From the NCBI GenBank assembly GCA_001695595.3, contig MBPM02000075.1:124001-188000 (forward strand): 64,000 nt of DNA, given 5' to 3'. Below the pieces are notes generated by a model. It was not told the DNA's origin and did not search any database. It was given only the letters and a program-made list of their open reading frames with translations. The stretch comes from Plasmopara viticola. Taxonomy: Eukaryota; Oomycota; Peronosporomycetes; Peronosporales; Peronosporaceae. Made by a program: the position numbers and the translations under genes. Shown here piece by piece: positions 19,164 through 59,516 of the stretch. How positions within the stretch are numbered: position 1 is the stretch's first letter; each line of letters starts with the position of its first letter.

Positions 19164-22100
19164 CTATAATTCGCTTTTATCTACAAGCTCTCGCCTTTCT
19201 TGATGCGCCAATGCACGTAGATCTTCACTTGGGCGCTCCAGATCGGACAGCTCCAACCTACTCGGGTCCTCTGAAAGAGTATCCAGTCGGTCTGAATCTG
19301 ATAAAAACGCAGTCAAATCTGTCGGAGCGTCAAGCTCGACCATTTCACCATTGACAACTACGAGCACGCGATCCACAGCATTTGAAATAAATGCTTTCAC
19401 GACCTGATCGTGCTGTGGTGAAGCTGTAGAGGTCGGTAACAATAGCAACAATGTTGCATTACGAAGCGTTTCATGCATCACACACTGCAAAATTTCCAGT
19501 GTAACGTCATCCAGAGCAAATTGCGGTTCCAGCTGTATTTGTACCTTGTCTGCTGGGGGCATAACCAACACATGAGCTACAGCCACTACTACGACGGATG
19601 GCTCGCTTAGCAATGCACGAGCAAGACTAAGCCGAAAACGCTTTGATGAATTTCGCATTAAACTTGATGCACCCGGGAGCAGATCGTCCAGCGAAGTCAC
19701 TTCGTTGTCAAGTTTAACCGCACGCAAAGCGGTCCACAATCTTTCATCTTCCAAATCAGCGCCACTTGGGTTGAGCTGCGTGCGTACCGAGCCATCATAT
19801 AGTACAGTGTTTGGTGCTGCTGCAGACACGCACGCAACACGTGAGCGGAGGGTATGCAGACTAAGAGTAGCCACGTCGACACCATCCACCACAATTCGTC
19901 CAGCCATTAGCTCGTGTAAGCGCAGCAATGCACGACCAACTGAAGACACTTGAGAGGCAGTAGACGACTCGAGAATTGCCACCTTTTCCCCAGCCTGTAA
20001 TCGAAACGACACAGCCTTAAGAGCTAAGGGTGGAGCTCCACCATCGCCGATTTCAAACACGTCGGTTAACTCGTCAACAATTGCAGCAGCAGGATCTCGA
20101 AAACTAACGGCATCAAAGCGCAAATCACCCTTCGTGGGCCAAGATGATGACGGATTGTTCTCATTCGGTATGAGAGGCGCTGATGCACGTCTTGTAGCGG
20201 CAGACGAGTATGTTGCGCTTTCAGTGATCACTTTCAAACCTCTTATTGCAGCTTGAACTCGAGCAGCAGTGGGTAATATTGGGCCTAGCCAAGCCCACAC
20301 TCGCAGGAGTGCCTCGAGTGCGCCACTATCAATCTTTAACGCTTCGTAGAGTGTCAAAGCCAGTACACCGGGCGTATGTCGTGAGGCTAAAAAAGATGAA
20401 GCTGCTACGATTCCAACCATAACAGCACCGTACAATTGAACGCGTAACGTAAGCCACAGGTCAACATGCAGACCTAAATGAGCATCGCGAGCAGCAATAT
20501 CTAATAGCCAGAAATGGTGACCCAAAACACGCTGAACATGCGCCACTCCAAAGGCCCGAACAACACGAGCCCCTGCAAGCGTCTCAGTTGCATGTATACG
20601 CGCAGCCTGCCGCGCTCGGCGCTCCAAATGGAGTAAGTCACGAGCCGGTCGCAAATACAATTGCGCAGCTCGAACGTACATGTAAACCATAGGCATCAGA
20701 AGAACTGCGTAGTACCTTATTACTATCACAATCGTCAGGAGCGCCAATAAAGTCGATGCTCCTAGAGACAGCATCGCACTTATGGCGAGAGGAAGCCTTG
20801 TATCCAAGACAGAGAGGTCTTTACTCGTAAATACTCGCTCAAGTTCCAACCTTCTGGATAGACTAAGGCGTTTTGATCGGGCGCGACCACTTCCAGCGCC
20901 ATATGCATCAAAGAAAACCAAAGGAGCGTGAAGTAAAGCTGATGTGAGTGTTGAAAAGGACCAACGTGCACCTAGATATGCTGCCACTGCAACGCCTAGC
21001 GCATAGCCAAATGCTAGCAGGCTGGCACTTAGAGCCAACAAAACGTAAATGAGTTGATCTGTTTCCAAGTTTTTCTGACTGGTCAAGTGTAACCACTTAA
21101 AGACCCACACCTCACTCATTAGCTGCAGCACTTGCCACGAGAAGAGAAGAATAAAAAGTAAGAGTGCAACCCGAAACCCACCAATACTACGAGTATAAGC
21201 GCGAATCGACTTGTACAGCCATTCTCCTTCTCTCCACTCCGCCTCTGCTGCTGATTCATACAAAAGATACTCGCGTAGAGATCGCTCGTGTAGCGAGATT
21301 CGACTTGTATTGATAATGTTCTCCATCGATACCTGCTCAATATCTGGTAATCTCACGGCAGGTGAATATGTTTCAGAGGTACCCACAGGATCAGTTCCAA
21401 ACGCATTGTAGTAAACCAAACTTTCCTCATCAATTTCCGTGTCGCTTTCCTCATTTTCTTGTTGGTCCTTACGCCCTGTGGCTTCATAAACATCCCGTGT
21501 ATGCACTAGCCGACCGCCATCTTCAAAGCGAATGGCATCATTTACGAACTCAGAATTTATAAATTCTACACGTGCTGTTACGATAATTCGTGTCTTGTCT
21601 TGCAGAAGTCCTAGTACACAGCGCGAGAAAATCTTACGCGCTACAGATCTCGGATGTATGAAAGCCAGAACGTCATCCAGCAGGTACACATCAGCATCAC
21701 TATAGCAAGCGCGCGCCAAACTGACTAGAGCCTGTTGTCCTAAGTTTGCTTTCCAGTCTCGAACTAGCGTGTGGTCACCGGCCGGTAACATTGCAAAAAC
21801 ATTCATGAGACTGCATGCATCAAGCACATGCTGGTACTTGCGATGGTCAAACGGAAGGCCAAACAGTACATTGTCACGCAAAGAAAGCGTCTGCTGCAGC
21901 CACGGCTGCTGTGGACAATATGCAACAGAGCCCCCCACATACAAACGACCACCAATCCCGTCACTTTCATCACGTGCTTGCATTTCACCCAGGAGCGCTG
22001 AAAGGAATGAAGTCTTGCCACTTCCAGGGCGTCCATGAACCACTAGCAGGTCCCCAGCGCCTACAGTCATATCCAAATGCTGGAAAATCACTGGACCATT

Positions 22101-23558
22101 CGTCGCCCAACCCAACGTTGCATCTTCAACAGCGATGACAACATCTTGTGAATCATACTTAGCTAATAGAGGCAAACTATCCCGCCGAGCAAAAGCGTAA
22201 GGATTTATTTCCTCTTGGTCCATAAATTCCGACAAATTGTAAAGGGAGAGCCAAGCCTTTCGTGCGTTTAGCAATGCATCGGGCAAAGCTCTAAGTGGTG
22301 TACTCATAAGACGCACGAGTGCCAGTGAAGCAAATGCTGATGCAGGAGAAAGTGAACGCGTAGAGTAGTGCAAGCCGACCACCATTGCAGTTGTAGCTGC
22401 AAGGACTGGCGTGGCATACTGAAAAGCAGCTTCTACGGCGCTTAGTACGTAAAAACGCCATAGAGCCGCCATCTCTCGTTCACGAGTAGCACTTATTCGC
22501 GCGTTTGCTGCAGATTCCCACGCATGTAACTTTACAGCAGACATAGCAAGCACCATTTCTTTCGCAGAACTTTGTCGAGTCTCTCGTGTTCTTTGTACCC
22601 GGTCTATTGATCGAAGCTGAAGCATTTTCAGTACTTGTGAAGCCACAAATGTCCAGATCATTGCACCAAGAGCTATTCCACATGCTGCATCGCCAAGAAA
22701 TTGCTCAATTAAAGTTAGAATCAACGCCAACAACACCACAGTTGCCCACACTTCGTGCAAACACGTAATGCCTTGGAGCAACTGTGTCACATCAGTTGTA
22801 TAGTGTGCGTCAGACTCTCGGATTTTGGTGGTTGAAAGCCTAAGTGCTTTTTGAAATACGAGACTCTGTAGCGCCGTTGTAAGACGCAGCGTTATTATCG
22901 TTAGCTCTGCGCGTACAAACACGGACAGTAGCGAGCGCAATAAACGGGAAAGAAGAAGCATCATAAGCCAGAACAAAAGACTTCGTCTCGTTTCACGTTC
23001 GTCTTTGTTTTCTTGCAGTAATAGCATCACGCTTTGAAACAGCACGTAAGGTCCCAATACTTCACAGAATTGCACCAGAGCGTGCAGAACTCCAAGCCCC
23101 ATAAATTTAAGCCCGTGCAATTTGATAAAGGCCAGTGGCAAGGAGCCGGAATTGATCCAGGCACGCTGCATAACGTTAGCGTCTGGCTCGGCGCGAGCGT
23201 GAAGTGGTAATTCCCAGACATCCGCCTGCTCCAGGCCGCGCTTTGCTAATCCTTGGTCTTGACGCCGGGGCTGATGAAATCGTGACTGATACAGTGATGA
23301 ATTAGGTACATTTTGTGGTGGTGGCCGATTGGCGAGCGTGATCGATTGGGTGACCCACTGCAAAAGCAGGCGGCTGAGAAATGATGCACACTCGACTGGG
23401 TGGGCGAATACTTGAGGCGGCGGCGCGCCGGTAAGGAGAGGCTGGCTTTCGGCTTTTACAGTAGATGCTTTGGAACGAATGAACGATCGACCAAACACGG
23501 CACTGTCCGCGGTCGTGCTCGCGCTGCTGCGACAGGTGTGTGAGGCTAGCGGGATCAT
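19164..23558 (-). CDS. ABCC (MRP)-type ABC transporter with degenerate second nucleotide-binding domain
   Basis: A 1464-residue full-length ABC protein in one exon with the order TMD1-NBD1-TMD2-NBD2, typical of ABCC exporters in plasma or vacuolar membranes. TMD1 spans about 145-430 and TMD2 about 790-1100. NBD1 (about 480-690) has a good Walker A, GRPGSGKTS (about 509-517), a Q-loop CPQQPW and a Walker B VYLLDDV. Its signature is altered (NLGQQALVSLARA), and the switch His is missing (VTARVEF where relatives have T-H). In NBD2 (about 1145-1350) the P-loop reads ESSTASQVSS, without the Gly-Lys-Ser/Thr core. The signature is MRNSSKRFRLSLARAL, and the Walker B is VVVVAVAHV without Asp-Glu. The long open frame argues that the gene is still expressed. 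Substrate unknown. The start ATG at 23558 is the first in frame. Confidence 0.88.
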   Translation of the reverse strand: MIPLASHTCRSSASTTADSAVFGRSFIRSKASTVKAESQPLLTGAPPPQVFAHPVECASFLSRLLLQWVTQSITLANRPPPQNVPNSSLYQSRFHQPRRQDQGLAKRGLEQADVWELPLHARAEPDANVMQRAWINSGSLPLAFIKLHGLKFMGLGVLHALVQFCEVLGPYVLFQSVMLLLQENKDERETRRSLLFWLMMLLLSRLLRSLLSVFVRAELTIITLRLTTALQSLVFQKALRLSTTKIRESDAHYTTDVTQLLQGITCLHEVWATVVLLALILTLIEQFLGDAACGIALGAMIWTFVASQVLKMLQLRSIDRVQRTRETRQSSAKEMVLAMSAVKLHAWESAANARISATREREMAALWRFYVLSAVEAAFQYATPVLAATTAMVVGLHYSTRSLSPASAFASLALVRLMSTPLRALPDALLNARKAWLSLYNLSEFMDQEEINPYAFARRDSLPLLAKYDSQDVVIAVEDATLGWATNGPVIFQHLDMTVGAGDLLVVHGRPGSGKTSFLSALLGEMQARDESDGIGGRLYVGGSVAYCPQQPWLQQTLSLRDNVLFGLPFDHRKYQHVLDACSLMNVFAMLPAGDHTLVRDWKANLGQQALVSLARACYSDADVYLLDDVLAFIHPRSVARKIFSRCVLGLLQDKTRIIVTARVEFINSEFVNDAIRFEDGGRLVHTRDVYEATGRKDQQENEESDTEIDEESLVYYNAFGTDPVGTSETYSPAVRLPDIEQVSMENIINTSRISLHERSLREYLLYESAAEAEWREGEWLYKSIRAYTRSIGGFRVALLLFILLFSWQVLQLMSEVWVFKWLHLTSQKNLETDQLIYVLLALSASLLAFGYALGVAVAAYLGARWSFSTLTSALLHAPLVFFDAYGAGSGRARSKRLSLSRRLELERVFTSKDLSVLDTRLPLAISAMLSLGASTLLALLTIVIVIRYYAVLLMPMVYMYVRAAQLYLRPARDLLHLERRARQAARIHATETLAGARVVRAFGVAHVQRVLGHHFWLLDIAARDAHLGLHVDLWLTLRVQLYGAVMVGIVAASSFLASRHTPGVLALTLYEALKIDSGALEALLRVWAWLGPILPTAARVQAAIRGLKVITESATYSSAATRRASAPLIPNENNPSSSWPTKGDLRFDAVSFRDPAAAIVDELTDVFEIGDGGAPPLALKAVSFRLQAGEKVAILESSTASQVSSVGRALLRLHELMAGRIVVDGVDVATLSLHTLRSRVACVSAAAPNTVLYDGSVRTQLNPSGADLEDERLWTALRAVKLDNEVTSLDDLLPGASSLMRNSSKRFRLSLARALLSEPSVVVVAVAHVLVMPPADKVQIQLEPQFALDDVTLEILQCVMHETLRNATLLLLLPTSTASPQHDQVVKAFISNAVDRVLVVVNGEMVELDAPTDLTAFLSDSDRLDTLSEDPSRLELSDLERPSEDLRALAHQERRELVDKSEL

Positions 23559-23913
23559 CCCCAGGTATGCAAATCAGCTGTATTGCTCATAGTTAAGTCA
23601 AGCTCAAGATAAGTCTTGAGAGAAATAAAGTCCTGCCATAGTTGAGCTTAGTCGCTTATCAGGAATAAGAGGTTATAAAAATGTATATACTTATTTATTT
23701 AAATTTGATCCTTCGAGACCGAGGCTCAAGAATACGAGAGTGGCACAATGCATAAACATCATTCTAGGAATGCGATCAGCGGACGAACATTCTCGATTCT
23801 TCACTGTACCAGTATAGGGTATCTTGGGACGAGAACACAAAGATACATGAGCGTTTTCTATGGGGACGGGGCTTCATACTACTCGTCAGTTTCTCAAACC
23901 AACCGTCCGTTAA

Positions 23914-24705
23914 ATGAAGCTGTCGTCGACAGACGCGGTCACATCGGTGTCAATGACTTTTCTGCTTTCCAGCATCGGTCGCATCAACGCTGCTTTGAAA
24001 GTTGTAGTGGCACAGCCTCCACCGCCGACCGGTACATTACGTGTGTGCCACGCAACGGAAGATGAATGGAACGCGTTTGCTGACAGCGAGGATCAAATTG
24101 TTCGACTAAAGTATCTTGAATGGTTTGCTGACACTGGCGAGATTCACATCATCGAGTTTGCCGACACTCCACACGAGCGATATATTAGTGAGTTCGAAAA
24201 AGGTACTTCCTTTGCCGAGCGACCTGTTCGTCTATGGCTTCAAGGATCCATGGCCGCCAAAAATTCTCAGGGGCAACGATGGTGTCCGGACCTCAGTTAT
24301 GGACCATGTCGAGCAACACCCGGCTCGGTGCTTCCTCCAAACGTACCAATATTTGCAGACTTTCGGACGATCAAGGTTGAAATTGGAGTCTCGCAGCAGT
24401 GGGGCATGGCACCTGGAGAGCTCGACCTTAAGGCGATAGATGTGTGGGCTGCGATGCCAGGAGTTGAGTACGTGCTGTGTGTGAAATTCGAGCCCGACTT
24501 TACGAATGCCGAATACAAGCTGTACGATGCTCGCGTCAATCCACTCGTGCAGCTAGCTCCACTTCCAATTGTCGCTCCAAGAACAGTGGTCCACTTGGAC
24601 GGACGTCGGATCCTTGGTATTGCGCCAGGGATGGCGCTCCCAGTAGGGTTTCCTGCAACTCTGCCGGTGGATATGTACTCTCCTTTGGTCTGGGCAATGC
24701 GTTAA
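23914..24705 (+). CDS. PD-(D/E)XK / Uma2-like protein, copy 1 (in left inverted repeat)
   Basis: An intact 263-residue frame from ATG 23914, with no intron and no obvious signal peptide. The middle resembles Uma2-type PD-(D/E)XK nuclease-fold proteins. WCPDLSYG (PD at 125-126) is followed by a strand with KVEIGVSQQW (E156, Q161), then LDLKAIDVWAAMPGVEYVL (K173) and a strand EYKLYDA. This order of PD, E-x-x-x-S-Q, helix with Lys, and Gly-Val-x-Tyr matches that fold, where the Lys has migrated to the helix. An overlapping frame at 23748-24065 runs through the start of this gene and is taken as a by-product. The last third (residues 205-263) is Pro/Gly/Val-rich and unassigned. The fold call is by eye; nuclease activity is inference. 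The twin copy is at 36734-37525. Confidence 0.6.
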   Translation: MKLSSTDAVTSVSMTFLLSSIGRINAALKVVVAQPPPPTGTLRVCHATEDEWNAFADSEDQIVRLKYLEWFADTGEIHIIEFADTPHERYISEFEKGTSFAERPVRLWLQGSMAAKNSQGQRWCPDLSYGPCRATPGSVLPPNVPIFADFRTIKVEIGVSQQWGMAPGELDLKAIDVWAAMPGVEYVLCVKFEPDFTNAEYKLYDARVNPLVQLAPLPIVAPRTVVHLDGRRILGIAPGMALPVGFPATLPVDMYSPLVWAMR

Positions 24706-24794
24706 TCAGACGTCTAGCAATCTCTTGCGCAGCAACTACCGATTGATGATTGGATGAGACGCGTGGAAAACCGGGTTTATACCGGCGTGGACCG

Positions 24795-24811
24795 ATTGTG
24801 ACATTCACAAT
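24795..24811. repeat. Perfect 7 bp palindrome with 3 nt spacer at the edge of the conserved block
   Basis: ATTGTGA-CAT-TCACAAT lies 7 bp inside the inner end of the highly conserved 1.1 kb block, and is present in both copies (the right copy at about 36624-36640). It could be a hairpin, a protein site or part of a terminator. Confidence 0.6.
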
Positions 24812-24964
24812 GACTGTAGATGCGAATATTGTGTGAGGATATAAGGGCTGTCGTATGTGTCACATCTTTGAACTTATGATTTGTAAGTTTTTTAAAATTG
24901 CTTTTTTGGCCGCTCCAAATATTTTCCCCTCCTAGTTCTTATTTCACAAGGTAAATTTATTCCA

Positions 24965-25012
24965 ATACTCCCATACTGACATACTCACATACTGACATAC
25001 TGACATACTCGC
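24965..25012. repeat. Six 8 bp tandem repeats (ATACTGAC type)
   Basis: Units ATACTCCC, ATACTGAC, ATACTCAC, ATACTGAC, ATACTGAC, ATACTCGC follow without spacers. The corresponding place in the right inverted repeat (about 36168-36182) has only about two units, so the array expanded after the two sides diverged. Confidence 0.85.
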
Positions 25013-25159
25013 ATGCTCTCAATATTTATTATTGATATAAAGAAACTATGTATGCTATTGACATGATATGATGTCTTTGTGGGAGTATCCATCTAAAATC
25101 TATCCTCTATTCATATTAGATGATCCAAACCTGGTATCGCTCATTGTTTTGTCTTGTGT

Positions 25160-26970
25160 AAGACAAAACTTTTACTGACGTTCCCGACACATTTGACGTG
25201 AATCCAATTCAAGATCCAACCGCTTATGCGTGGCATTGTAGTAGTCAGACATCATAAAAAATATGATCTTAAGCGACGAACATATATAAATACATAACCT
25301 AAGCAATATGACAATGTGCAACTTCATCAAAAGCATCGAAGAAAAGTGCAAATCAGCTCGCAACAAGGATCGCTGCTGCAAAAACTGGATTATCGTTGAT
25401 CGAGAGGAACGCATCGGCGCCAATTTCGGCCAGCACCTTTAGAGTTAATAATGAGTACAATATTTGGAAAATTGATTGTATCTATGGGTGTTTGCCCCAT
25501 TTCGAACTTTTACTTTGATATACGCTTTCATAGCTTTTAAAACTGAGAAACAGAAATACAAGCAGCTTCTTCGTATTTGCATCTACCAGCGATGTATTGA
25601 TAAGTATTATTCGTCGCCAAGAAGATTGTGGTTTCCAACGAACGATACCGGACAAAACGTCTCAATCCTTTGTTTTTGTATTTCGAATGAAACTTCAGAT
25701 AAGTTGATCGACAGCGGTGCAGAAAGACGCCAAATTCCTTCGTTTAATATTTATCTCAAATTTCGTGTTTCTTCTTTTTTCAGGAATGATTTTCTCAAAG
25801 TTAGCAACCTTGAAACGACAAACTACTTCACCAGTTTCATCATTGTAGTTTGGTAGTTTGTTGCTGTTGATGATTGTTAGTCATGGACTGGAATCGAGCC
25901 TTTTCCTTTCGCAGGACAATTAGATAGATTACTCGTTTCCATACTCAAGAAGGCAGCCTTTGGTAGAAAATTGCTCACATCAACGTAGCATAAGATTTAT
26001 TTCTTAGCATATTTAGATAGGCCAAACTCTCCTTGGTGTAAATTGAAAAGAATAAAAACCTTATTGTGAGTAAACGAGTACTTGACATGATTCATTAAAA
26101 CTTCTTAACCAGATTTGCCTTCACCAAGTAAGGATACCATGCAATCAAATTTATCATTTAGCTTAGTCATCAGACGACCAATCATATATAAGATAAACTC
26201 AATAGTCTCATTGTCAAACTGAAATTACATGTACTGATCAAGTAGAAAAGCATAGTTGTCGTCAATTTCAAATTCCGAGTCAATGTATGCTCGAATCTGA
26301 ATGTTCTCAACGGTATCAGCGGTCACAGTAAACGTGGCATTAAATGATCAGAGATACCATTTCTGAATCCAGTACTTCATTTCAATGAACTCAAAGCTCG
26401 GATTGATGGTATTTTAAATAAAGTAAAGTAATCGCTGGTGATCTTGTAATTTGCACATATGAAGCAGATGCTCAGTTGTGAATGAAATGTAGCAGGATCG
26501 TCGTAGTAACGAACATAGTAATATGGAAGCATATTCTCATAGATGGCGCCAGTTCAAAATTCACGCTCGTACTTGTCTTTGACGAGATCAAACAGCTTCT
26601 CTCAAAAGAAAGACTTTGCCATCTTTATTTTCTCCGAGTCCCTTTGGGTCGCATTCTCCTTTCCATTAATAGTATGACGCTCCGTCAGTTCCACCAGCAA
26701 TGGATTTGATTTAAGTTCCACTTGACATTGGATGATATTTGGAAGTTTTCCAATCATTATATACGTTTAATACAGAGGCTCGATCAGATTGTTCTGTCAT
26801 TGTGTGAAGAATACACGAGTATGTCTTGCGCATTAAGCCAAGATATATGTGTTGCTTGCGATATAGCACACCAGCCAAGCTCCAAATATGATTGTTTTCG
26901 CAAAGGCATGATCTCTTCATCATGCAAAATACTTTTATAGACGCTCATTGTATTACCCGCTTGACACACA
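25160..26970 (-). pseudogene. D5-like SF3 helicase-primase remnant (viral)
   Basis: Read on the minus strand in several frames. From right to left come KSILHDEEIMPL, LFDLVKDKYEREF, IYENMLPYYYVRYYDD, a Tyr/Phe-rich block, and FDNETIEFILYMIGRLM. Then comes a Walker A region, FDCMVSLLGEGKSG, around 26105-26150, and GEVVCRFKVANFEKIIPEKRR further left (about 25770-25840). The block order and the G-E-G-K-S-G motif preceded by MIGR match D5-type superfamily 3 helicases of large and Polinton-like DNA viruses, which unwind DNA at viral origins. The codon for the catalytic Lys is now a stop (TAA, minus strand of 26105-26107), and further stops and frameshifts occur throughout. The 5' end is unclear. 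Call by pattern only. Confidence 0.6.
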
Positions 26971-27641
26971 ATATATTACAAATTTAAGTTTTTCATCGAG
27001 CCCTAAGAATGTTTCTTCGGCCTCATCTGATTCAATGCAGATACGCTTAAGCGAGGTTACTGTAGCATCTTTTCGATTTTCAAGTAGGATGTGTGAGATG
27101 CAACCCTGATCAAATAATACTTGTGGATCTACATTCGAGATGAATTGGTATTTCCTTCACATGCACCGATTACTACATTAGACCTCAGAATGTCTTTATT
27201 GTCGTATTCATGTCTGCAAGTATCCCAAGTAATGCCTACCGCCTCAGCATCAAAAATATTTCATCTTAACTTTGATCCTCTTTGAATACCATGCTATCCG
27301 CGATCGCCGGTGTGACAATTGACTCATACGCATTTAAATCTTCACTTACTTTGAAATTCAAAGCCTCGACGAGCTTAGTTGCTAATGGTTCTTGAGTATG
27401 AACTAAGTTGAGGCGGTATCTCTTCAACGATAAACTGCCCCTGAAGTATACTTTGAAACAGACAAGTCATACGACCACGCGCTTGAGACTCCTACAAAGA
27501 CCGCTACAAAGCCTCTAAGCCGATCTAAAGACCGTCGGGGACGCATATTTCATGGAGATTTCACACCTTCTCGTAGCGACAAGACGCTTGAAATTGATAT
27601 CTACGAGATATCATTTACTTACTATAACATGCAATGTGATC

Positions 27642-28085
27642 ATGGTGCCCAAACAAAAGAGAACGTATCGCGAAGCTGGTCCTTTCCGTGTGAAATTTTA
27701 TGGACTTCAAGCTTGCTTAAATTGTGACAAATCTCGAGTAAATATCCAAACAATGCTTGTCTATCATGTTTTCGTTGATCTGTGGTGGTTGATACGAGAA
27801 GACACGCAGTTCAAAAAAGTGGTGTTTGATCTTTTAGACGATCAAGAGCGTGATTTCATGCGGTAGTGCTTGAATTAGTGTAAACTTACTTCACGAGGAC
27901 ATATAATAAGCTTTAAGACGGTCTCGTAAAACGCTCGAGGGTGCTTGAAGGCACAAACAGAATCGAAGATGACAATCCATCAATCAAAATTAATATAAAG
28001 GCCGCTTTGGACAAGTTTCATGAGAGGAATCTGTTGTCAACCTCAAACTACAGCCAATGTAAGCGTCTGATGAAGCTTTGAGTTT
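27642..28085 (+). pseudogene. Small unidentified viral-region protein, broken
   Basis: Starting at ATG 27642 a basic stretch (VPKQKRTYREAGPFRVKFYG) leads into VVFDLLDDQERDFMR. After a stop and a frame change come GLVKRSRVLEGTNR, DDNPSIKINIKAALDK and SQCKRLMKL. The second half looks like one helical domain. It lies directly upstream of, and on the same strand as, the penton-like gene, so it is probably part of the viral gene set. No function can be given. Confidence 0.45.
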
Positions 28086-28402
28086 CTGAGACTCGCGTTT
28101 GAAGTTGAGCAACTTCGAAGTATCGATATAAAATGGTTTCTTCATTGTTTTTCTTCTTCGCAAAACGAATAAGCTGATCTGACTCGGTTTGTTAGTCAAA
28201 GTCTCATACTTGTTGATCCATAGCCGAATTTAGAAGGAGCTTTGTGTTTCAAGTGATCCACGTCGCCTAACTATCGATATTTATCGCTCGAGGCATCATT
28301 TGTCGGCGAATTATCTGTCGTCGTTGCATACTTATTTGAGTTTGTTTTATATAGACAGTAATGAAGACGTCATTTCCAACTTTGCCAAATCTCAATAACA
28401 AC

Positions 28403-29184
28403 ATGGCTACTCACCAATACCGATACCGATTCTCACAGCCAATTGATCTCAGTCAGTATAAAACTGCCCTCGGATCCATATCGACCTACTACTCATGGCG
28501 AGCAATTACTACTTAAAGCTGTTAGTTTAAAGCTGTTATTTTGACGTCAAGACCGTATGGCCAACTGCTTCTACGACAATGACATTCACAACTACGCTCC
28601 CTGATGGAACATACTCGGCAAGCGATATCAACAACTGCCTTCAATACTGGTCTACTCATAACAATTTATATTGAATTTCTAAAACGACTGGACAACACTA
28701 CTATTTCATCCCATGTGCTGACAACCTATCGAGCTATGCCTTGCAATTTACACTGTGGCCAGTCGAAAATATCTGCTGCAAGTGTCTTTCCAGCAACACC
28801 AGTCTGTGCTTATATACCTCAGCTCTGCGTAGTCAATACCGCTTTCGGCTCTATCAATAAAGTTCGATTACTTACTCAGCCGCTCAGCCAACGAGCCTTT
28901 ATGCAGTCAATAGTAATCTGATGCCTCGAATAGATCCAACAGTGGCTGTTGTTATAACTTGTACAAGTCTCCACAACCCAATCACAAACAACAATCGAAT
29001 CCTACACACATTAAAGTTTGCTGGGGTAAAACATAACGATCTATTTACAACGTCTCAAAGACAAGGATTAGCATTTTGTCCAATACAAAGATTCAGTTTA
29101 GGATTGACGCTGTCATTTCTCGATCAGAATATTATTCCGCTCAGAATCATTGATGACAACGTATGCATTCGTTTGTTGATTTGA
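28403..29184 (+). pseudogene. Penton / minor-capsid-like protein remnant (viral)
   Basis: The ATG at 28403 opens YRFSQPIDLSQYKTALGSIS followed by TYYSW, then (after stops) LPDGTYSASDINNCLQYW. Next come PATPVCAYIPQL, then SLHNPITNNNRILHTLKF and finally LTLSFLDQNIIPLRIIDDN near the 3' end. Opening SxPIDLSxYxxALxSxxxxYSW, DGTYSxSDIN in the middle and the SFLDQNxxPLxIxD ending are the layout of the small jelly-roll penton proteins of Polinton-like and related viruses, which occupy capsid five-fold vertices. About 260 codons, normal for that group. Several stops and frameshifts make it a pseudogene. Confidence 0.6.
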
Positions 29185-29283
29185 CGAATGCAACAGTTAA
29201 CAGTCATCTCCAACCAATTGACCAAAAAAATTTACGAATTGCAGACCGATTCGATAACGTTTTTGTAAATGTCTCTATCAGAG

Positions 29284-31960
29284 ATGTCCATTAGCCCGGT
29301 AGTTATCTCTCAAGATGCTGTTCGTTTGTATTGTGATTTTAGTGGGGAAGTCGCGGCATGTGATTCCAAGATCTCTCAGTTTAATATTTCGACCAAGTAT
29401 CACATATTTAAAGTCATTCAAAAAGTCTAGGAGGGATACCAAAATAGCTCTAAAACAAGTGAATCATACTTCAACCTTATTTACGTCCTTGGATGAAGTA
29501 CTGGGAGTTCTGCGCTTAGCTTTGCTTTGGTGTCATCACCAGGTCATCTACTATTACAAATCTGCTAATTTCGCTATCATATAGACTCAATGCTGAAACT
29601 TTCCCATCTTTCATCACTTGAACATTACCGATCGTGGTTTTGAGACGATCACAAAGTGTCTCATTGGTCTTTGTACAGACAACTATTCGTGTGATGCATT
29701 TTCTTGAAAGCGCTTTTAAACAGAACGGTGTTTAACTTTCCCGACCCATTGGTACTTGCAACACACAATTCTATTGGCAGCCCAAAGTGAGGATTCTTTG
29801 GAAAGTTCTGCAGTTTGAACCCCGGTATCGATTCGTAAAAAAATGCATTGTCTAGTATAGTGATCGAATATGTCTCTTCCTCCAATTGTCAAGTCTCCTC
29901 TATCCAATAGCTCTTACTGTAGTGCAACTAATGGGTATCGTCCTATGATTATAGGCGATCAAAGCTAGTTGTGGCTTGGTGGTTCTGGAACGCTATCTGT
30001 GTTGAGCGTGATCGGCAAAACTGATTGCGGTTTGGTGTTCTACGTTAGACTTGATTGGATATCACATGTTTCAGGTGTAACTACTGGAGCCGCTCGATCT
30101 TCGGACACTCTGGTAATAGGTTCTGATAAGGCTATTACCTCTCTTTCATCTACAGCTATTGCGAGGACACTCACTGCTGAGAAACAATTCAACATCACAT
30201 CTCTTGGTACCTTAACTAAAACTCTTTCTGTTTCAATCAATTTCAAATAGTTCGCTACCGCTCAAGTGAACATTGAATATCGAATGCTCATCGATTCAAC
30301 TGGAAGCGTCGGCATTAGAACTCTACCATCTTTTGAATAGGATTTAGGCACATGTGGAACTGGAATTAAAACTGGAGCATTAAAATTCAACGAGACTACT
30401 CTTGATCAATCGTTGTACTTGCCGATTTCTCAAGGCTTAAAAGCCGGTGTGCTAACTTCAGCTCTTGGTTTTAGTGGAACAAATAGCTTTGGATGCTCTA
30501 TCCCTGATGCTTCAACAAATACGGCTTCGCCTGCATCACAGTCAATACGAGCAATACCTCTGCTGGTTTCATTATTTAATATAAAAATTTAGCGCTTACG
30601 AGAGTTATTGTGCGCTTGATTTTGGCTCTATTTTTTTTGTGCACGTCAAGAGTAAAAGAAAGGATATATCTATGGTCGTACGTCATGGCAATGGATCGGC
30701 AATGGCATCCACTGCTGCAAAACTCAATTATAGCAATATTGCAACTCTCGGGGCATTTTAGTCGTCAACTTGATACTTATGGTGTCGGATTGATGCCTTC
30801 AGGCACGTCTAGCGCAAATTTGTCGCGTCTTTACGGAAATACAGCCAACCGTGAAACGATGAGCATTTATCGACTATCGGTTACGAATGGTTTGGTCATC
30901 GCTTCAAGAGCGATACCCGCATCAACTTACAAACGTATCTGGTGTTAAATCCAACATCGACTGATAGTCCAAGTTCATTCGCTGGCGGTGTTTCAGCTAC
31001 AAGCGCCGACTTGATTGAAATATGAATTGGAATGACAATTCATCCGTGGGTTTCACCTTTCAAACGCATCAATTCTACTTCATTGTTGGGAATACTCAGC
31101 CTTACAAAAGCAGGTTCCTCATACATATATTCTCGACAGCAAATGCTTTCTGTATAAGTCCTGCCGGGTCGTCGTCTACTCCAACATGTGGTTGTCTTTA
31201 CCTTGTTTCAAATACTGTTTGTAAAATGATATTATACAACAATACACCATACACAAGCTCGTTTGAGACTGCTCCTTTCACGCTAAAATCTGGTGACACT
31301 TACATTAAAGCATTTGATGCACCCAACAATGGATCTGCAAACTATGATTTGCCCATTTTCGTCAAACGCCTCGCCTGTTGGCTTTGGATTACAACTGCAT
31401 CACACAACGAATGCTACATTCACTAATACGGAAGATTTTTTACCAACGATTTGATTTCTATGACTGCAAATACACAAAGACTTACAATAATTTGACTGAT
31501 AGAATTGGCATCGGAACTGGATCACCAAACTCCCTTTGCGTGTAATTGGATATAACTCATCTATCAAAACTATACCAATAAGAAAAATTTCGTATAGTTA
31601 TGATGTAGTCTCTAACGCGTGGGCAAATCGTTGCGGCGGAGCTCCTACTCTAACAAACGCCTCAGATTCTTTTGGTAATAACATTTGCATTCAAGCTGGT
31701 ATATGGGCTACGTCTGATCGTCGATCGAGAGAGGCAAAAAAACCGATTTAACATTTGATCGTTTCAAGGACCATAAATTGGTTAATTTTGTTGCAAAAAT
31801 GAAAAATTAGTTGATTTAATAGTTCAAGATGTAATGCGTGATTGTTCAGAAGCAAATACGATGATCAAAAATTCAAATTTGTGATTGAGGGTGAAACGTG
31901 ACCGGAAGGAGTTCAATTGTGCTTAGTATACAATGTATCATGATTTTAAATGTCTCGATA
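29284..31960 (+). pseudogene. Viral fibre-like protein with C-terminal peptidase S74 chaperone domain, broken
   Basis: From about 29980 the readable pieces contain the Ser/Thr/Leu-rich repeat typical of viral fibres, e.g. TLVIGSDKAITSLSSTAIAR and NITSLGTLTKTLSVS (30090-30240). The end carries a peptidase S74 domain: ICIQAGIWATSDRR (31685-31725), a LTFDRFKDHKLVNFVAK block, and VIEGET with PEGVQLCLVYN (31880-31935). In this domain a conserved Ser in the TSDRR(L)K motif cuts the chaperone off after it has folded the trimeric fibre. Stops are frequent, including a TGA in place of Trp between VIEGET and PEGVQ. The 5' boundary is approximate and more than one fibre gene may be merged here. Confidence 0.65.
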
Positions 31961-31989
31961 AATTGGAATAGACTATTGAAAATAATTGT

Positions 31990-33000
31990 AGCACTCACTT
32001 GCTTACACATTCCATCAAGCCAGCCTTTTTATTCAGCTTAGAACCGATTCACAGCATCTCGTTTCATTTTATGCTTTCTCGGGGTTTAGGAGATTGTCTT
32101 CAATAATTTTTTTTTGCCTTTGCGCTGCTCGAAAGCTTCGCCAGATCTATGTCAGATACTTTTGTACACATTAATTTCAGAAGAGCTCTATTAGATGTTG
32201 ATATCGTCAGTATATACTCTTTTTATCCCAGCGTTTAACTTGCGTACTCTCTTCTCTTTCTAAAATTTCTTTGTCATCACCGCTCTCGCCAACACCTGAG
32301 TCTGGAAAAAGCTGTCGATTAATTGAGAGTTTCTCCTCATCTCGTTGAGCAGCCTTTGTCGCCCGTTTGTCGCTAGGGGACTTTTTTTGGTGGAGTTACG
32401 GTTCGTTCTCGTTGAAAAAACTTTGCCGATTCCATCATGACTTCGTCAGAAATTTATCAGCCACTTCTTGACGTCCAATTTAAATCCTCTCATCGAAACT
32501 CTTCTTGTTTGTGATATTTTTGAACATATTAGTCGACCATCTGTTTCAATGTTAATTTCTTGTTGATGCATGCTCGATCATTGACGGCGTTGTGGGCAAT
32601 GTCATTTACTTCTCTATAACTTATTTTAAAAGAATCTCCAAGTGCAGCGGGTGGGTCCATATTCACGACTGCGTCAGTTTGTAGGGAGGTATGTAGGCCT
32701 TTTCTTTGTAGATTTAAACCTTCATTCGTTTCTCCCTTGATAACTTCAGGGAGACCTTCAGGACTTTCAAATAGATTTTGCTATTCGGTCATGATCATAC
32801 TCACGATTTTTCCTTATTCTTTGCTGAAACAAATTTCCAAGTGAATCGGCACTTGCATCATCCATCGATTCGTTTTGAAACAGAGCCTTTCGTCCTTAGC
32901 CGTGATCGAAATCACTCTTCGCCATCGTTTTGTGATAGCGATCATGTGTCTTTTGCAAGGTCTGATTATCAGACGATACGTATATAGAAGATGATTTTTT
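31990..33000 (-). other. Viral-region sequence with weak minus-strand coding signal
   Basis: On the minus strand, fragments such as TDAVVNMDPPAALGDSF, ISYREVNDIAHNAVND and ERTVTPPKK can be read between stops. They look like a real, broken protein of about 300 residues, but I do not recognise the family. Confidence 0.35.
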
Positions 33001-33343
33001 TTATGATGGTTACAAAGAATTACATTGATTTATCATTTGAGATCAACAATTCACGGTATCTGCGATACCTGAATTTGGACTAAAACTTGCGCAACGCGTG
33101 AGTATAAATGGTAAGAGCGTAGTTACAGTTGGAAGTCCCAGACACGATAATATCTTACTTGCACCATCTTCACTTGAAAGCTACGAACCGATACAAGGAC
33201 TCCAATTGACGCTAAGACAGCACACCAGCCAAAATAACATCATCAAGACCTCCATCAACACTTGACCTCGATAATTCTTGTAACGCCAAACCATATCCAA
33301 AACTTCCGGAGCTGTTCCAAATAGGGACGCTTCCAACTGTGAT

Positions 33344-34700
33344 CTACAGATTTTTCAATGCGGCAAATAAACTCGTCATTGCAGGAACCGTCGAGAATGG
33401 GCTACGAAATGGATCAATCGTGTTCGATACTGTCGCTCCTGCAGTGGGAAAAATAATAACAAGTTGCATGATCAAACGCTTTGGGTTTGCAATACTATAA
33501 CAGACCTTCCAAGTGAAAAAGTTTCCGAAATAGCATTGCATTAGTTCGTAATTCGTTCAAAGTAGCGGAATGTTTTTGTCTGATCCAACGCATGGTCGGC
33601 GATTGGGTTAGGCGAGAATGTTGGAGCAAGAAGACGTGAAAACGATTGTGATGGAGTGATATCAGTTCCACCTATGAGAGTATCATTCTCATCGGCTGTA
33701 ATCGTAAGAGTTTTAGCGGATGCAGGGAGCGCAAGGCCACCAATCAAAGCAGTTGTTGTTGTACACTGCTAAAATTGCAAAGCACTGGGCAGGTGCTGCC
33801 AAAACTCATATTTCTGCTCAAAGTAGCAATAGTAGCAGGCGCAACGACACCGGCATACCAGCTGTAACCAAAGTAGTGGATGAACTGTTGTAATTGAGGT
33901 AAATGAAAACGCGCGTACTGCATGGGCTTTACTTGAAATGGTCAGAAATATCCCGCAACTAAATGCAAGCCAAGTAATGCGCTATGTTAAATGGCGAACC
34001 AGCTGCAACGACCCCATTTGGAGCCGCATAGACTTATGATTTCGATACGGCTTGAAGATTTGCGCTATCCCTCATAACATCGAATACAAGCTTCGAGCTT
34101 GGTTGATCAAAAGCGATAAAATTGATCGTTCTCCTCTGTTCGAGTCGGTGTTAGCTAGACCAAACTCACCGATATGTATTCGTTGCTACGAAGTAGCCAA
34201 ACTATCGAACGATTGTGCCACCCCGCTTGATCCTCGGATCGTTATAGTTGAATATTTATCCAAGATAAAGTCTGGTTGTAACATCTCTGACATACGTATT
34301 ATGATCAGTTTCAGTCAGAGCCTTGAAAGCTGTATAATAGCTCTCATAAACATGATCCGTTTGAATAGTGGTTCCATCAATAGCAACTTTAACACTATCA
34401 TTGAAATGCCACGCGACGGCCTTCGGAACCGATTAGTCAATATTACATGCAGCAGTCAAAATGACCAACTAGCACCACCATTAAGAATTTAAAGCTTTAC
34501 TGAAACTCGACAGATGCGGCTTGTGAAGAATTAGTCGAGATATTTAATTGGATTTGTCCGGCATACTGACCGGTGTTAGACGTAATATCCTGAATGTAAG
34601 TCTATTTCGTATCTCGAAAGAGCGTCCCAACTGGAGCGGGTTCGACGGAATGTTCGAATGCTAAAATATCAGAAGCTAAAGACGTTGTTAATATTGATGA
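33344..34700 (-). pseudogene. Second fibre-like viral gene remnant
   Basis: Minus-strand pieces include VGTLFRDTK, TYIQDITSNTGQYAGQIQL, NISTNSSQAASVEF (about 34500-34640) and LPASAKTLTITADENDTLIG, GGTDITPSQ (33660-33740). They are Ser/Thr/Gly/Ile-rich beta-type stretches as in viral fibres, on the strand opposite to the S74 fibre. No S74 end was recognised. Many stops; boundaries approximate. Confidence 0.4.
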
Positions 34701-35760
34701 CGATCACATTTAAATCGCCAAAAAATAAAGTACCTTGATTTTTTTGAATTGTCAGAAACGACTGATGATCAACTCATGAAACTTTTGGTGTCAAAGTGGA
34801 TCAAATTGATTCCAAGCAGTATCTGAATAAAAGCGAAGACCATTGCATAATCTACATGGGGACACTCCAGATATCTCAAACACAGTCTCAAACAAAGAAA
34901 TTGTAGATTTTAAGCCTCTAGGCTCGCCAATATCACTTGTAATACAAAAGGATCATTTCTTTCGCGGTTTTGATATTAAGGACCCTCGATTTGCTCACTC
35001 TGGGCAGTATTGCGTGTGGCTTTACTATGTACAGCACAATTATGTAAAGGAACCTATAAGCTCTTCAAAGGGCAATTATAATTTTTGATGGATGTATAAA
35101 GAGATGGATCTTACAAACTTGGATTATAGAATCATCGACGAATACAAAAATTATGACAAGTACTGTTTGGTCAGGGAAACGCTTTCTGGTCCTATGATTT
35201 AGATGAGGATGCATTTGTTTCACGGGCAATTTTAATTGCTTCGTCGTGACCATCCTTCCAAGTATGGAGAGTGCATTATAATCAGTGCCGAATGTTGCGA
35301 GCTCGAAATGTAATACGGACTTACCATACAAAAGCAATAAATTTTAAAATTATTGAGACGCACAAACCAGAGCCAATTTGCATTATGAAAACTACTACGC
35401 ATGGCCAACTCCCAAACAAAGCTAAAATTCAGTTGAGGCAAAACCTACTCTGGTTGGCTAAAATTGCATCACCAAAAATACTTTTCCAGCCAAGGTGTAT
35501 TTAGTGGAAATACCTAGTCATGCGCAGTTACGCGCTAAGTAATTGTGAGGTTCATCATTTCATATGATATTATTGCTATAATATTGTATGAGCTCGACAT
35601 ATAAGCGTAGCTTCGAAATTAAAAGAATTATTGGCAAGAAAAATCCTTTGCTAGAAACCAAACTCGCCACCACGTCAGTTTGGCAAATGACGTACTCATG
35701 ATTTGTTAAGTGCTGATGATGCCTGAAGAATTCAGCATCAATATCGTAAACTATAACAAT
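34388..35760 (+). repeat. Segmental duplication, copy 1 (inside the viral element)
   Basis: The stretch beginning AACACTATCATTGAAATGCC and ending near AATATCGTAAACTATAA matches 40335-41702 in the same orientation over ~1.37 kb, with scattered substitutions and small indels. Frames inside (34843-35088 plus; 35065-35337 and 35560-35859 minus) are not recognisable proteins. Confidence 0.9.
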
Positions 35761-36220
35761 CTTTTTACGATTCCGCAATTTTGGAATCACACCATCTCCT
35801 TGCATTTCAAATAATGTGACAAATAGTTGCTTTTGGATGTAGCTTAATCGTCTTTTCATTCTTCAAATGTGGGGAAATGGACATTGCACATTTATATTAC
35901 TAAGGTTTTGTTTAATATTTTAATAACTTCGTCGCATAAGATCATAATTATGTTGCCTGATTACTACAATGTCACCATGATGAGGATTGGATCATGACTT
36001 GTTAAATGTGTCGAAAATGTCCGTGTCACGAAAAATTAAGCGATACAAGGTACGAATTATCTTATATCACTAAAAGATTTGTTTTAGATGGAACTGTGAA
36101 ATTGCCCACAAAGCTTACATTCAGATCATGTCATGCAGTATCTTTATTCCAATAGTGAACATTGCGAGTATGTGAGTATTGGGATAAATTTACTATATGA
36201 AATCTGAACCAGGAGGGGAT

Positions 36221-36546
36221 TGTATTGTATTGTATTACGTTATCGCGTTGCCAAGTTATGCACGTGCTAGGCTCAGTCTGGCTAGTCCACGGCATAAAGT
36301 GGTGTCCGCATACGTCGGGTCTCGTTCGGCGGGCAGTGCAGCCAGCACCGAGGCCGTGAGGGTCTTCCATTATTTTGTGTAGTTCTGACTTGGTAAGAGC
36401 CCAGGTGGCGCCCTGGTGCTGGAGACCGTCGCGTCGAGGGTGAGACTCGTTAGAGACCTGCAGATGCCCGAGAGCACCTGCCCGAAGCGCGCGAGCATTT
36501 AGCCCCCGCGCTTGGAAGGAGGGCGTCACCCCAACCTTTTCCGAAA
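36221..36546 (-). mobile_element. SINE copy A (in right inverted repeat)
   Basis: A ~326 bp insertion flanked by a perfect 14 bp target duplication AACCAGGAGGGGAT (36207-36220 and 36547-36560). Read on minus it starts CGGAAAAGGTTGGGG and ends in a (TACAA)n tail. It is absent from the matching place of the left inverted repeat, so the empty site is visible in this window. The long minus-strand frame through it (36131-36700) is not a gene. Confidence 0.9.
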
Positions 36547-36733
36547 AACCAGGAGGGGATATGTACAAAAAAGCAAAATAGACGGAGTGGCTATCTCGTG
36601 GTACAAAATACGCACTTACAGTCATTGTGAATGTCACAATCCGGTCTACGCCGGTATAAACCCGGTTTTCCGCGCACTTTGATCCAATCAGATCACTCAT
36701 CAGTTGCTGCGCAAGAGATTGCTAGACGTCTGA

Positions 36734-37525
36734 TTAACGCATTGCCCAGACCAAAGGAGAGTACATATCCACCGGCAGAGTTGCAGGAAACCCTACTGGG
36801 AGCGCCATCCCTGGCGGAATACCAAGGACCCGACGTCCGTCCAAGTGGATCACTGTTCTTGGAGCGACAATTGGAAGTGGAGCCAGCTGCACGAGTGGAT
36901 TGACGCGAGCATCGTACAGCTTGTATTCGGCATTCGTAAAGTCGGGCTCGAGTTTCACACACAGCACGTACTCAACTCCTGGCATCGCAGCCCATACATC
37001 AATCGCCTTGTGGTCGAGCTCTCCAGGTGCCATGCCCCACTGCTGAGAGACTCCAATTTCAACCTTGATCGTCCGAAAGTCTGCAAATATTGGTACGTTT
37101 AAAGGAAGCACCGAGCCGGGTGTTGCTCGGCATGGTCCATAACTGAGGTCCGGACACCATCGTTGCCCCTGAGAATTTTTGGCGGCCATGGATCCTTGAA
37201 GCCATAGACGAACATGTCGCTCGGCAAAGGAAGTACCTTGGTTGAACTCGCTAATATATCGCTCGTGTGGAGTGTCGGCAAACTCGATGATGTGAATCTC
37301 GCCAGTGTCAGCAAACCATTCAAGATAATTTAGTCGAACAATTTGATCCTCGCTGTCAGCAAACGCGTTCCATTCATCTTCCGTTGCGTGGCACACACGT
37401 AATGTACCGGTCGGCGGTGGAGGCTGTGCCACTACAACTTTCAAAGCAGCGTTGATGCGACCGATGCTGGAAAGCAGAAAAGTCATTGACACCGATGTGA
37501 CCGCGTCTGTCGACGACAGCTTCAT
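36734..37525 (-). CDS. PD-(D/E)XK / Uma2-like protein, copy 2 (in right inverted repeat)
   Basis: An intact 263-residue twin of the gene at 23914-24705, differing at roughly ten residues. Examples are Asn for Lys in the KYLEWF motif, His for Leu in LDLKAIDVW, Leu for Phe before EPDF, and Pro for Ala in GIAPG. The presumed fold residues P125, D126, E156, Q161 and K173 are all kept. 5' and 3' flanks are also shared. Upstream of the repeat edge an open frame continues rightwards (to about 37832), but it is absent from copy 1 and is regarded as chance. Function as for copy 1; activity not shown. Confidence 0.6.
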   Translation of the reverse strand: MKLSSTDAVTSVSMTFLLSSIGRINAALKVVVAQPPPPTGTLRVCHATEDEWNAFADSEDQIVRLNYLEWFADTGEIHIIEFADTPHERYISEFNQGTSFAERHVRLWLQGSMAAKNSQGQRWCPDLSYGPCRATPGSVLPLNVPIFADFRTIKVEIGVSQQWGMAPGELDHKAIDVWAAMPGVEYVLCVKLEPDFTNAEYKLYDARVNPLVQLAPLPIVAPRTVIHLDGRRVLGIPPGMALPVGFPATLPVDMYSPLVWAMR

Positions 37526-37715
37526 TTAACGGACGGTTGGTTTGAGAAACTGACGAGTAGTATGAAGCCCCGTCCCCATAGAAAACGCTCATGTATCTTT
37601 GTGTTCTCGTCCCAAGATACCCTATACTGGTACAGTGAAGAATCGAGAATGTTCGTCCGCTGATCGCATTCCTAGAATGATGTTTATGCATTGTGCCACT
37701 CTCGTATTCTTGAGC

Positions 37716-40330: not shown

Positions 40331-40334
40331 AGTT

Positions 40335-41702
40335 TGAACACTATCATTGAACTGCCACGCGCCGACCTTAGGAACCAATTGATCAATAGTACACGCAGCA
40401 GTCGAAGTGACCAACCAGCACCACCATTGAAAATTTAAAGCTTGACTGAAACTCGACCAATGCGGCTTGTGAAGAAATGGTCGAGATATTTATTTGGATT
40501 TGTCCGGCATACTGACCGGTGTTAGACGTCGAATCCTGAATGTAATTCTATCTCTTATCCCGGAAGAGCATCTCAGCCGGAGCGGGTTCGCCGGAATGTT
40601 CGAATGCTAAATTATCGGAAGCGGAAGACGTTGTTTATATTGATGATGATCACATTATAATCGCCGAAAAAATAAAGTACCTTGATTTTTTTGAATTGTC
40701 AAGAACGACTGATAAACAACTCATGAAACTTGTGGCGTCAAAGTGGGTCAAATTGATTCCAAGCAGTATTCAAATAAAAACGAAGACCGTTGCATAATCT
40801 ACATGGGAACGCTCCAGATATCTCGAACACAGTCTCAAACAAAGAAATAGTATAGTTTAAGCCTCTAGGCTCGCCAAGATCACTTGTAATACAAAAGGAT
40901 CATTTCTTTCGCGGTGTTGATATTAAGGACCCTCGATTTGCTCACTCTGGGCAGTATTGCGTGTGGCTTTACTATGTACAGCACAATTATGTAAAGGAAC
41001 CTATAAGCTCTTCAAAGGGCAGTTAAATTTTTGATGGATGTATAAAGAGATGGATCTTACAAACTTGGATTATAGAATCATCGACGAATACAAAAATTGT
41101 GACAAGTACTGTTTGGTCAGAGAAACGCTTTCTGGTCCTATGATTTAGATGAGGATGCATTTGTTTTACGGGTAATTTTATTTGCTTCGTCGTGACCATC
41201 CTTTCAAGTATGGAGAGCGCATTATAATCAGTGCCGAATGTTGCGAGCTCGAAATGTAATACGGACTTACCATACAAAAGCAATAATTTTAAAATGATTG
41301 AGACGCACAAACCAGAGCCAATTTGCATTATGAAAACTACTACGCATGGCCAACTCCCAAACAAAGCTAAAATTCAGTTGAGGCAAAACCTACTCTGGAT
41401 GGCTTAAATTGCATCACCAAAAATACTTTTCCAGCCAAGGTGTATTTAGTGGAAATGCCTAGTCATGCGCAGTTACGCGCTAAGTAATAGTGAGGTTCAT
41501 CATTTTTATGATATTATTGCTATAATATTGTATGAGCTCGACACATAAGCGTAGCTTCGAATTGAAAAAATTATTGGCAAGAAAAAGCCTTTGCTAGAAA
41601 TCAAACTCGCCATCACGTCAATTTGGCAAATGACGTACTCATGTTTTGTAAATTGCTGAAGATGCCTAAAGAATTCAGCATTAATATCGTAAGCTAAAAT
41701 AA
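40335..41702 (+). repeat. Segmental duplication, copy 2 (outside the viral element)
   Basis: Direct copy of 34388-35760, starting right after the gypsy RNase H remnant and ending just before a SINE. It lacks the viral inverted repeat, so it is either a fragment of a second related element or a duplication of part of the first. Confidence 0.9.
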
Positions 41703-41749
41703 TTCCACAATGCTCCACACTTGATTTTTTATTAAACAGTCTAAAGACC

Positions 41750-42079
41750 CTTCGGAAAAGGTTGGGGTGACGCCCTCCTACCAAGCGCGGGGGCTAAATG
41801 CTCGCGCGCTTCGGGCAGGTGCTCTCGGGCATCTGCAGGTCTCTAACGAGTCTCACCCTCGACGCGACGGTCTCCAGCACCAGGGCGCCACCTGGGCTCT
41901 TACCAAGGCAGAGCTAAACAAAATAATGGAAGATCCTCACGACGTCGGTGCTGGATGCACTGCCCGCCGAACGAGACCCGACTATGCGGACACCACTTTA
42001 TGCCGTGGACTAGCCAGACTGAGCCTAGCACGTGCATAACTTGGCAACGCGATAACGTAATACAACACAATACAATACA
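41750..42079 (+). mobile_element. SINE copy B
   Basis: A ~330 bp SINE in plus orientation between perfect 12 bp duplications AGTCTAAAGACC (41738-41749 and 42080-42091). Head GGAAAAGGTTGGGGTGACGC, GC-rich body, tail AATACAACACAATACAATAC. It lies ~190 bp before the eIF3e start codon. Confidence 0.9.
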
Positions 42080-45763: not shown

Positions 45764-45922
45764 ATGAAATGGCATCAGTATATGATCTTTGTAATAAATG
45801 GAAGCAACCAAAACCTGAGCTTATATCTTGAGAGGCTGAAGCTATCGGTATTTATACTGGTAGAAGTTAAATTTTGTGATTGTGCGAAAATATAGGTCAA
45901 CCAATATAACATAAACAATGTA

Positions 45923-46240
45923 ATGTATTACGTCATCGCGTTGCCAAGTTATGCACGTGCTAGGCTCAGTCTGGCTAGTCCACGGCATAGAGTGGTGTCC
46001 GCATACGTCGGGTCTCGTTCGGCGGGCAGTGCAGCCAGCACCGAGGTCGTGAGGGTCTTCCATTATTTTGTTTAGCTCTGCCTTGGTAAGAGCCCAGGTG
46101 GCGCCCTGGTGCTGGAGACCGTCGCGTCGAGGGCGAGACTCGTTAGAGACCTGCAGATGCCCGAGAGCACCTGCCCGAAGCGCGCGAGCATTTAGCCCCC
46201 GCGCTTGGAAGGAGGGCGTCACCCCAACCTTTTCCGTAGG
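45923..46240 (-). mobile_element. SINE copy C
   Basis: About 318 bp between perfect 15 bp duplications AACATAAACAATGTA (45908-45922 and 46241-46255). Minus orientation; the tail is short and mutated (TAATACATTACA type). It is 160 bp after the glycosyltransferase stop, so it may fall in that gene's 3' region. Confidence 0.9.
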
Positions 46241-59178: not shown

Positions 59179-59193
59179 GAACGAAGGCTTTGT

Positions 59194-59516
59194 ATTGTAT
59201 TGTATTACGTTATCGCGTTGCCAAGTTATGCTCGTGCTAAGCTCAGTCTGGCTAGTCCACGGCATAGAGTGGTGTCCGCATACGTCGGGTCTCGTTCGGC
59301 GGGCAGTGCAGCCAGCACCGAGGTCGTGAGGGTCTTCCATTATTTTGTGTAGTTCTGACTTGGTAATAGCCCAGGTGGCGCCCTGGTGCTGGAGACCGTC
59401 GCGTCGAGGGTGAGACTCGTTAGAGACCTGCAGATGCCCGAGAGCACCTGCCCGAAGCGCGCGAGCATTTAGCCCCCGCGCTTGGAAGGAGGGCGTCACC
59501 TCAACCTTTTCCTTGC
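59194..59516 (-). mobile_element. SINE copy D
   Basis: About 323 bp between 15 bp duplications GAACGAAGGCTTTGT (59179-59193) and GAACAAAGGCTTTGT (59517-59531), one mismatch. Minus orientation, tail (TACAA)n. Lies ~400 bp upstream of the EED-like start codon. Confidence 0.88.

Follow-up and report, generated by a model that had tools for sequence, protein, structure and literature searches.

We wanted to understand what kind of element lies at a locus of the Plasmopara viticola genome where long inverted repeats enclose broken viral genes. The window, that is, the whole stretch of 64,000 nucleotides that was analysed, is part of contig C75, and the element occupies 13,992 bp of it (23724-37715), bounded by inverted repeats of about 1.6 kb, hereafter the arms. 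A previous note made from the letters alone (the sequence-only reading) had proposed one integrated and decayed viral genome, a Polinton-like virus fossil, with its class left open. One decayed genome, with ruined viral genes between terminal repeats, is still the best reading, and each arm was found to carry an intact gene of predicted nuclease fold. We favour, at a probability of about 90%, a whole account in which an oomycete-type polinton-like virus (PLV) integrated and decayed, its arms were kept alike by conversion, and the viral nuclease survives in both of them. Genome-wide searches covered the P. viticola assembly (92,937,831 bases in 358 contigs).

Class of the element

The sequence-only reading had recognised neither a capsid nor an ATPase gene. 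This was wrong, since both a major capsid protein gene and a packaging-ATPase-like gene fragment are present (Table 1), and the capsid gene settles the class. Its alignment to the capsid protein of 'Phytophthora water mold MELD virus' covers almost the whole length of that protein (E 2e-104), and the predicted fold of the capsid family is the double jelly roll, so that a capsid of PLV type is present as a gene remnant with the family fold. Given the kinship of this capsid with those of oomycete viruses, and its family fold, the element is supported as a decayed PLV, a member of a kind already known in oomycetes. The terminal inverted repeats, about 1.6 kb long, agree with those of hundreds of bp found in PLVs, and the 13,992 bp of the element fall right at the bottom of the 14-40 kb range given for PLVs in the available text of PMC12220804. 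Scans of IMG/VR for capsid relatives gave none that could be confirmed, and a PDB sequence search with the capsid profile gave no match (best E 0.56).

In an alignment that permits shifts of frame, the capsid gene has 10 premature stops with one query and 9 with the other, and 9 frame changes with either. Codon 28 is a recurrent stop site (TAG, TAA or TGA in 7 of 16 aligned rows). Over the window and 13 other capsid copies, 39 of 61 premature stops fall on tryptophan (W) or glutamine (Q) codons, a share that remains above the approximately 46% expected under a fourfold transition bias. This pattern suggests a C-to-T biased decay. The same W codons were also seen to be hit repeatedly by different stop codons among the capsid copies.

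The nuclease-fold gene of the arms

The other recognised genes of the element are broken; the nuclease-fold gene is intact in each arm, as an open reading frame (ORF) of 263 amino acids (aa). Its structure model (predicted local distance difference test score, pLDDT, 87.6) has a restriction-endonuclease-like fold, the predicted fold being that of the Uma2/DUF820 PD-(D/E)XK nucleases. This assignment rests on a second structural comparison, because Foldseek alone gave no match. The ORF resembles Uma2/DUF820 proteins (PF05685) in its predicted fold; unlike them, it is without a sequence-profile match and is located in terminal repeats of oomycete viral elements. The PF05685 profile reached E 0.14 against a distant homologue, and searches of PDB sequences gave a best E of 0.62 with the nuclease and no match with its profile. 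In total, 66 homologues were found, and the named relatives are oomycete throughout, across several genera. Among the acidic residues of the family, D126 is invariant and E156 nearly so, and these two would be the catalytic residues, as in the fold family. The ORF is probably a DNA-cutting enzyme. Between elements, the ratio of nonsynonymous to synonymous substitution rates (dN/dS) of the nuclease is 0.27-0.62, which we read as the mark of selection in the living virus.

Divergence of the arms

The length of about 1.5 kb first given for the repeats was about right, the outer and inner parts of the left one coming to 1598 bp in total. Two divergences could be compared. The first is that between 34388-35760 and its copy of about 1.4 kb outside the element, which differ at 91 of 1369 positions (6.6%). 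Two stops of the capsid gene (codons 28 and 73) and two of its frame changes (at 69 and 81) are common to both copies, and these frame changes are absent from a related element on contig C58. These common lesions indicate that the duplication at 40.3 kb postdates the death of the capsid gene. The second is that between the outer arms, which differ at only 32 of 1109 positions (2.9%; P 1.5e-5 against the duplication). Moreover, the differences are unevenly spread, with 0 in 387 positions at the outer end and 32 in 722 elsewhere (P 1.3e-6), and the difference-free 387 bases include 190 upstream of the nuclease ORF. Since the arms, expected to be at least as old, are less diverged than a duplication made after death, they were probably homogenised after death, and gene conversion between them is probably the simplest account.

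Related copies in the host genome

Other copies were found in the host genome. Searched with 601 bp of the left arm, it gave 15 matches. C58:351882-368077 contains both repeats and an interior that is collinear but for one segment (67-79% DNA identity by piece), C50 and C2 contain one arm and interior each, C57 and C71 arms only within the stretches examined, and C11 an inverted arm pair about 0.6 kb apart. As most of the interior recurs with the arms in other copies, arms and interior belong together, and the repeats are not unrelated inserted gene copies.

At least 88 related capsid loci were found in the genome. Contig C10 holds a dense cluster of viral elements, where 20 matches to the nuclease lie together with 10 loci of the capsid gene in about 330 kb (approximately 0.78-1.11 Mb), and many of the nuclease frames there are open, at about 290 aa. 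C146:53158-56770 and C93:176140-178279 carry tandem nuclease-only copies about 1.5 kb apart, and up to 16 kb away from them neither the capsid nor the ATPase has a match; they may have spread independently or been retained by the host. Finally, contigs such as C172, C80, C123, C254 and C277 carry many identically scoring S74 matches, with frames open up to 928 aa and PF03175 PolB on the same contigs, and are perhaps a second, younger element group.

Interior genes, ends and neighbourhood

The coordinates of all features are collected in Table 1.

Table 1. Features of the element and its surroundings, in window positions.
Feature	Position	Strand	Remarks
ABC transporter reading frame, open	19164-23573		1468 aa scanned; PF00005, PF00664
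Left terminal inverted repeat, outer part	23724-24832	+	96.8% to 36603-37715 over 1113 columns
Intact 263-aa ORF	23914-24705	+	Uma2/DUF820-like PD-(D/E)XK nuclease fold, predicted model
Left terminal inverted repeat, inner part	25005-25321	+	66.8% to 35884-36179
Fragment like residues 3-39 of C58 open frame L019:305-754	25296-25406	+	E 6.7e-9
Segment inverted relative to C58, approximate span	25410-27440	.	interior comparison with C58
Primase-helicase-like gene, front part, broken	26417-27117	-	E 1.9e-39 to C13 frame
Remnant of a gene region found throughout the family, 3' part	27440-27731	+	upstream part tyrosine-recombinase-like, by eye only
Penton-like gene fragment	28705-29157	+	E 1.4e-36 to C58 open frame; penton identity not confirmed
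Packaging-ATPase-like gene fragment	29483-29780	-	E 3.3e-23; homologue of a family-wide gene
Broken fibre gene ending in an S74 chaperone	29864-31881	+	relative carries PF13884
Gene related to a conserved 290-aa gene, broken	32197-32973	-	E 1.6e-26; function unassigned
Major capsid protein gene	33086-34682	-	9-10 premature stops, 9 frame changes
Right terminal inverted repeat, inner part	35884-36179	-	partner of 25005-25321
327-bp interspersed repeat, SINE-like	36219-36545	+	within right terminal repeat; four window copies, ~96-98% alike
Right terminal inverted repeat, outer part	36603-37715	-	partner of 23724-24832
Second intact copy of 263-aa ORF	36734-37525	-	96% protein identity to 23914-24705 copy
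Copy of 34388-35760 outside the element	40333-41703	.	carries the capsid-gene lesions of the element

A fibre with an S74 end, a D5-like helicase and a penton had been proposed for the interior. The fibre was borne out, as 30882-31872 aligns to a 342-aa relative (E 7.5e-38) that carries PF13884 (E 1.7e-14); the S74 Pfam profile itself matched 71 places in the genome and none on the element's contig (E<=1e-3). For the helicase, a primase-helicase-like gene is represented by its front part, which matches a C13 frame directly upstream of C13's PF19263 frame, but the D5-type domain PF19263, which is present in the relatives C13, C14, C61 and C66, was not found in the window by profile search. Likewise, the putative penton gene is homologous to an open frame of C58, but neither the window nor the C58 pieces searched gave a profile match. 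The C58 relative of the ATPase-like gene reached Pfam Pox_A32 and a PHROG ATPase at E 0.11 only, and Walker-type motifs were seen by eye. Between 24750 and 36250, all 83 pieces that run from stop to stop and are no shorter than 50 aa were searched with Pfam, without a credible match (best E 0.0089). A tyrosine recombinase was considered by eye for a 449-aa frame of C60 and obtained no support from Pfam, PHROGs or PDB; the integrase profile PF00589 had no match anywhere in the genome, and the rve integrase was not searched for.

Three features had escaped the sequence-only reading: the partial duplication, the intact nuclease-fold gene of each repeat, and an inversion at about 25.4-27.4 kb. C58 frame L019:305-754, which adjoins the primase-helicase-like piece in C58, is split in the window, with its residues 63-106 matching 27406-27275 on the minus strand. 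Because the direction of the helicase relative to capsid, fibre and ATPase in C13 and C66 is the same as in C58, the inversion most likely arose in the window copy.

When the end sequences were compared by eye, no target duplication was seen, as the sequence-only reading had noted; such duplications are rare in PLVs that encode a tyrosine recombinase, according to the available text of PMC12220804. The short interspersed nuclear element (SINE) that it had proposed is presumably an interspersed repeat of 327 bp in the right arm, which is SINE-like and matches no Rfam family. The three further copies in the window lie at 41751-42076, 45919-46240 and 59190-59512. The upstream end of the ABC transporter frame is 150 bp away from the element, and window positions 1-4122 are a tandem array of units of about 760 bp, approximately 85-92% alike and without a Rfam match.

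Proposed history and alternatives

In the history that we propose, an oomycete-associated PLV would have integrated about 150 bp from the ABC-transporter frame and then decayed in place. The stretch now at 40.3 kb would have been duplicated after the death of the capsid gene. The terminal repeats of the dead element would have gone on exchanging sequence by gene conversion, leaving the outer 1.1 kb nearly identical, and the viral Uma2/DUF820-fold nuclease in the converted arms would thereby survive as two open copies. In the living virus, this nuclease may have acted at or on DNA ends, in replication, in integration or in attack on rival DNA, which is the weakest step.

Several observations weigh against this account. 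Foldseek alone found nothing for the nuclease model at E<=0.001, and PF05685 had no match at E<=1 with 32 aligned members including the window ORF. The ATPase, penton and helicase names depend on motifs or on homology to relatives that are themselves broken, and all three stay below Pfam cut-offs in the window and C58 pieces. The recurrence of the stop at codon 28 weakens the argument from shared lesions, the divergence of the 40.3-kb duplication is uneven over its length, and this sequence could be a fragment of another insertion, that of a relative which had already died, in which case the comparison of clocks would carry less weight. Finally, the association of nuclease and capsid across the genome is partial: at distances of up to 16 kb, 62 of the 88 capsid loci lack any nuclease match, and 34 of 73 nuclease places lack both a capsid and an ATPase match.

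These places without capsid neighbours, including the tandem copies on C146 and C93 and the inverted pair on C11, together with outer arms that appear far younger than the interior, would also fit repeats that are not virus ends but a separate nuclease-only mobile unit that entered two times, either on both sides of an older viral remnant or within it. We consider this improbable, as inward-facing pairs about 15 kb apart flank viral genes in C58, C14 and C61, and the inverted repeat extends inward past the nuclease unit both in C58 and in the window element.

Slightly less probable still is that host domestication keeps the nuclease ORFs open. Both arm ORFs are indeed intact among broken genes and the dN/dS between the window arms is 0.48, but this value is not significantly different from neutral (P 0.10-0.19), nor is that of 1.94 between the C58 arms (P 0.43), so that the arm-to-arm comparison gives no significant sign of purifying selection after integration. 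Moreover, the nuclease is open over its full length in only 3 of the first 12 places listed, and the identity of the outer 387 bases includes those upstream of the ORF.

A Polinton/Maverick proper, with protein-primed PolB and a retroviral integrase instead of a primase-helicase, is very unlikely, for although PolB- and integrase-bearing Polintons are described in oomycetes (available text of PMC7805220) and PF03175 has 40 matches in the host genome, none of these is on the element's contig, in keeping with the sequence-only reading, which had recognised no polymerase (the profile might miss a decayed gene), or on C58, C50, C2, C13, C14, C61 or C66, four of which (C13, C14, C61, C66) carry the PF19263 primase-helicase.

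Comparison with known systems and meaning

As far as the available text describes them, PLVs of the Gossevirus group are integrated in oomycetes with terminal repeats, and a single oomycete genome can hold as many as 299 copies of the capsid (PMC7805220; PMC10120064), and oomycete capsids are assigned to this group (capsid cluster PC_0014). The element is like these Gossevirus (GKS1) PLVs in its oomycete host, integration, terminal inverted repeats, capsid and packaging-ATPase-like gene and, in its relatives, the primase-helicase; it is placed there by host and literature. In their available text, the papers on this group mention no terminal-repeat nuclease and name an 'endonuclease PC_0013', its type and location unstated. 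The Phytophthora water mold MELD virus (P0104; 14,755-bp contig) has a similar genome size and a capsid whose homology extends over almost its entire length and which, unlike that of the element, is unbroken in the database. Metagenome contigs of 13-16 kb (those behind P0074, P0083, P0091 and P0093) also carry this capsid. S74-type fibre ends are ubiquitous across PLVs of most groups, and the cryptophyte PLVs share them and terminal repeats with the element; they differ in their hosts and in carrying homing and HNH/GIY-YIG endonucleases, none described within repeats in the available text (PMC12220804). Polinton fragments are reported from Phytophthora parasitica (available text of PMC8204020). 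A literature search limited to open-licence papers, in their available text, found no description of a nuclease inside PLV terminal repeats.

As a virus fossil, the element is one of many, and PLVs in oomycetes are already published. The feature worth following is a gene of predicted nuclease fold that is open in both arms, which themselves look younger than what they enclose. A doubtful but conceivable extension is that the Uma2-fold nuclease of oomycete PLV terminal repeats serves integration or replication by opening DNA or trimming its ends, and that its cuts inside the repeats or close to them also drive arm conversion in dead copies, so that the gene would outlive the virus. With copies in the terminal repeats of more than one element and kin across oomycete genera, this conserved gene is a candidate end-processing or competition enzyme. 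Because arms may be homogenised after death, the divergence of terminal repeats can underestimate the integration age of such elements.
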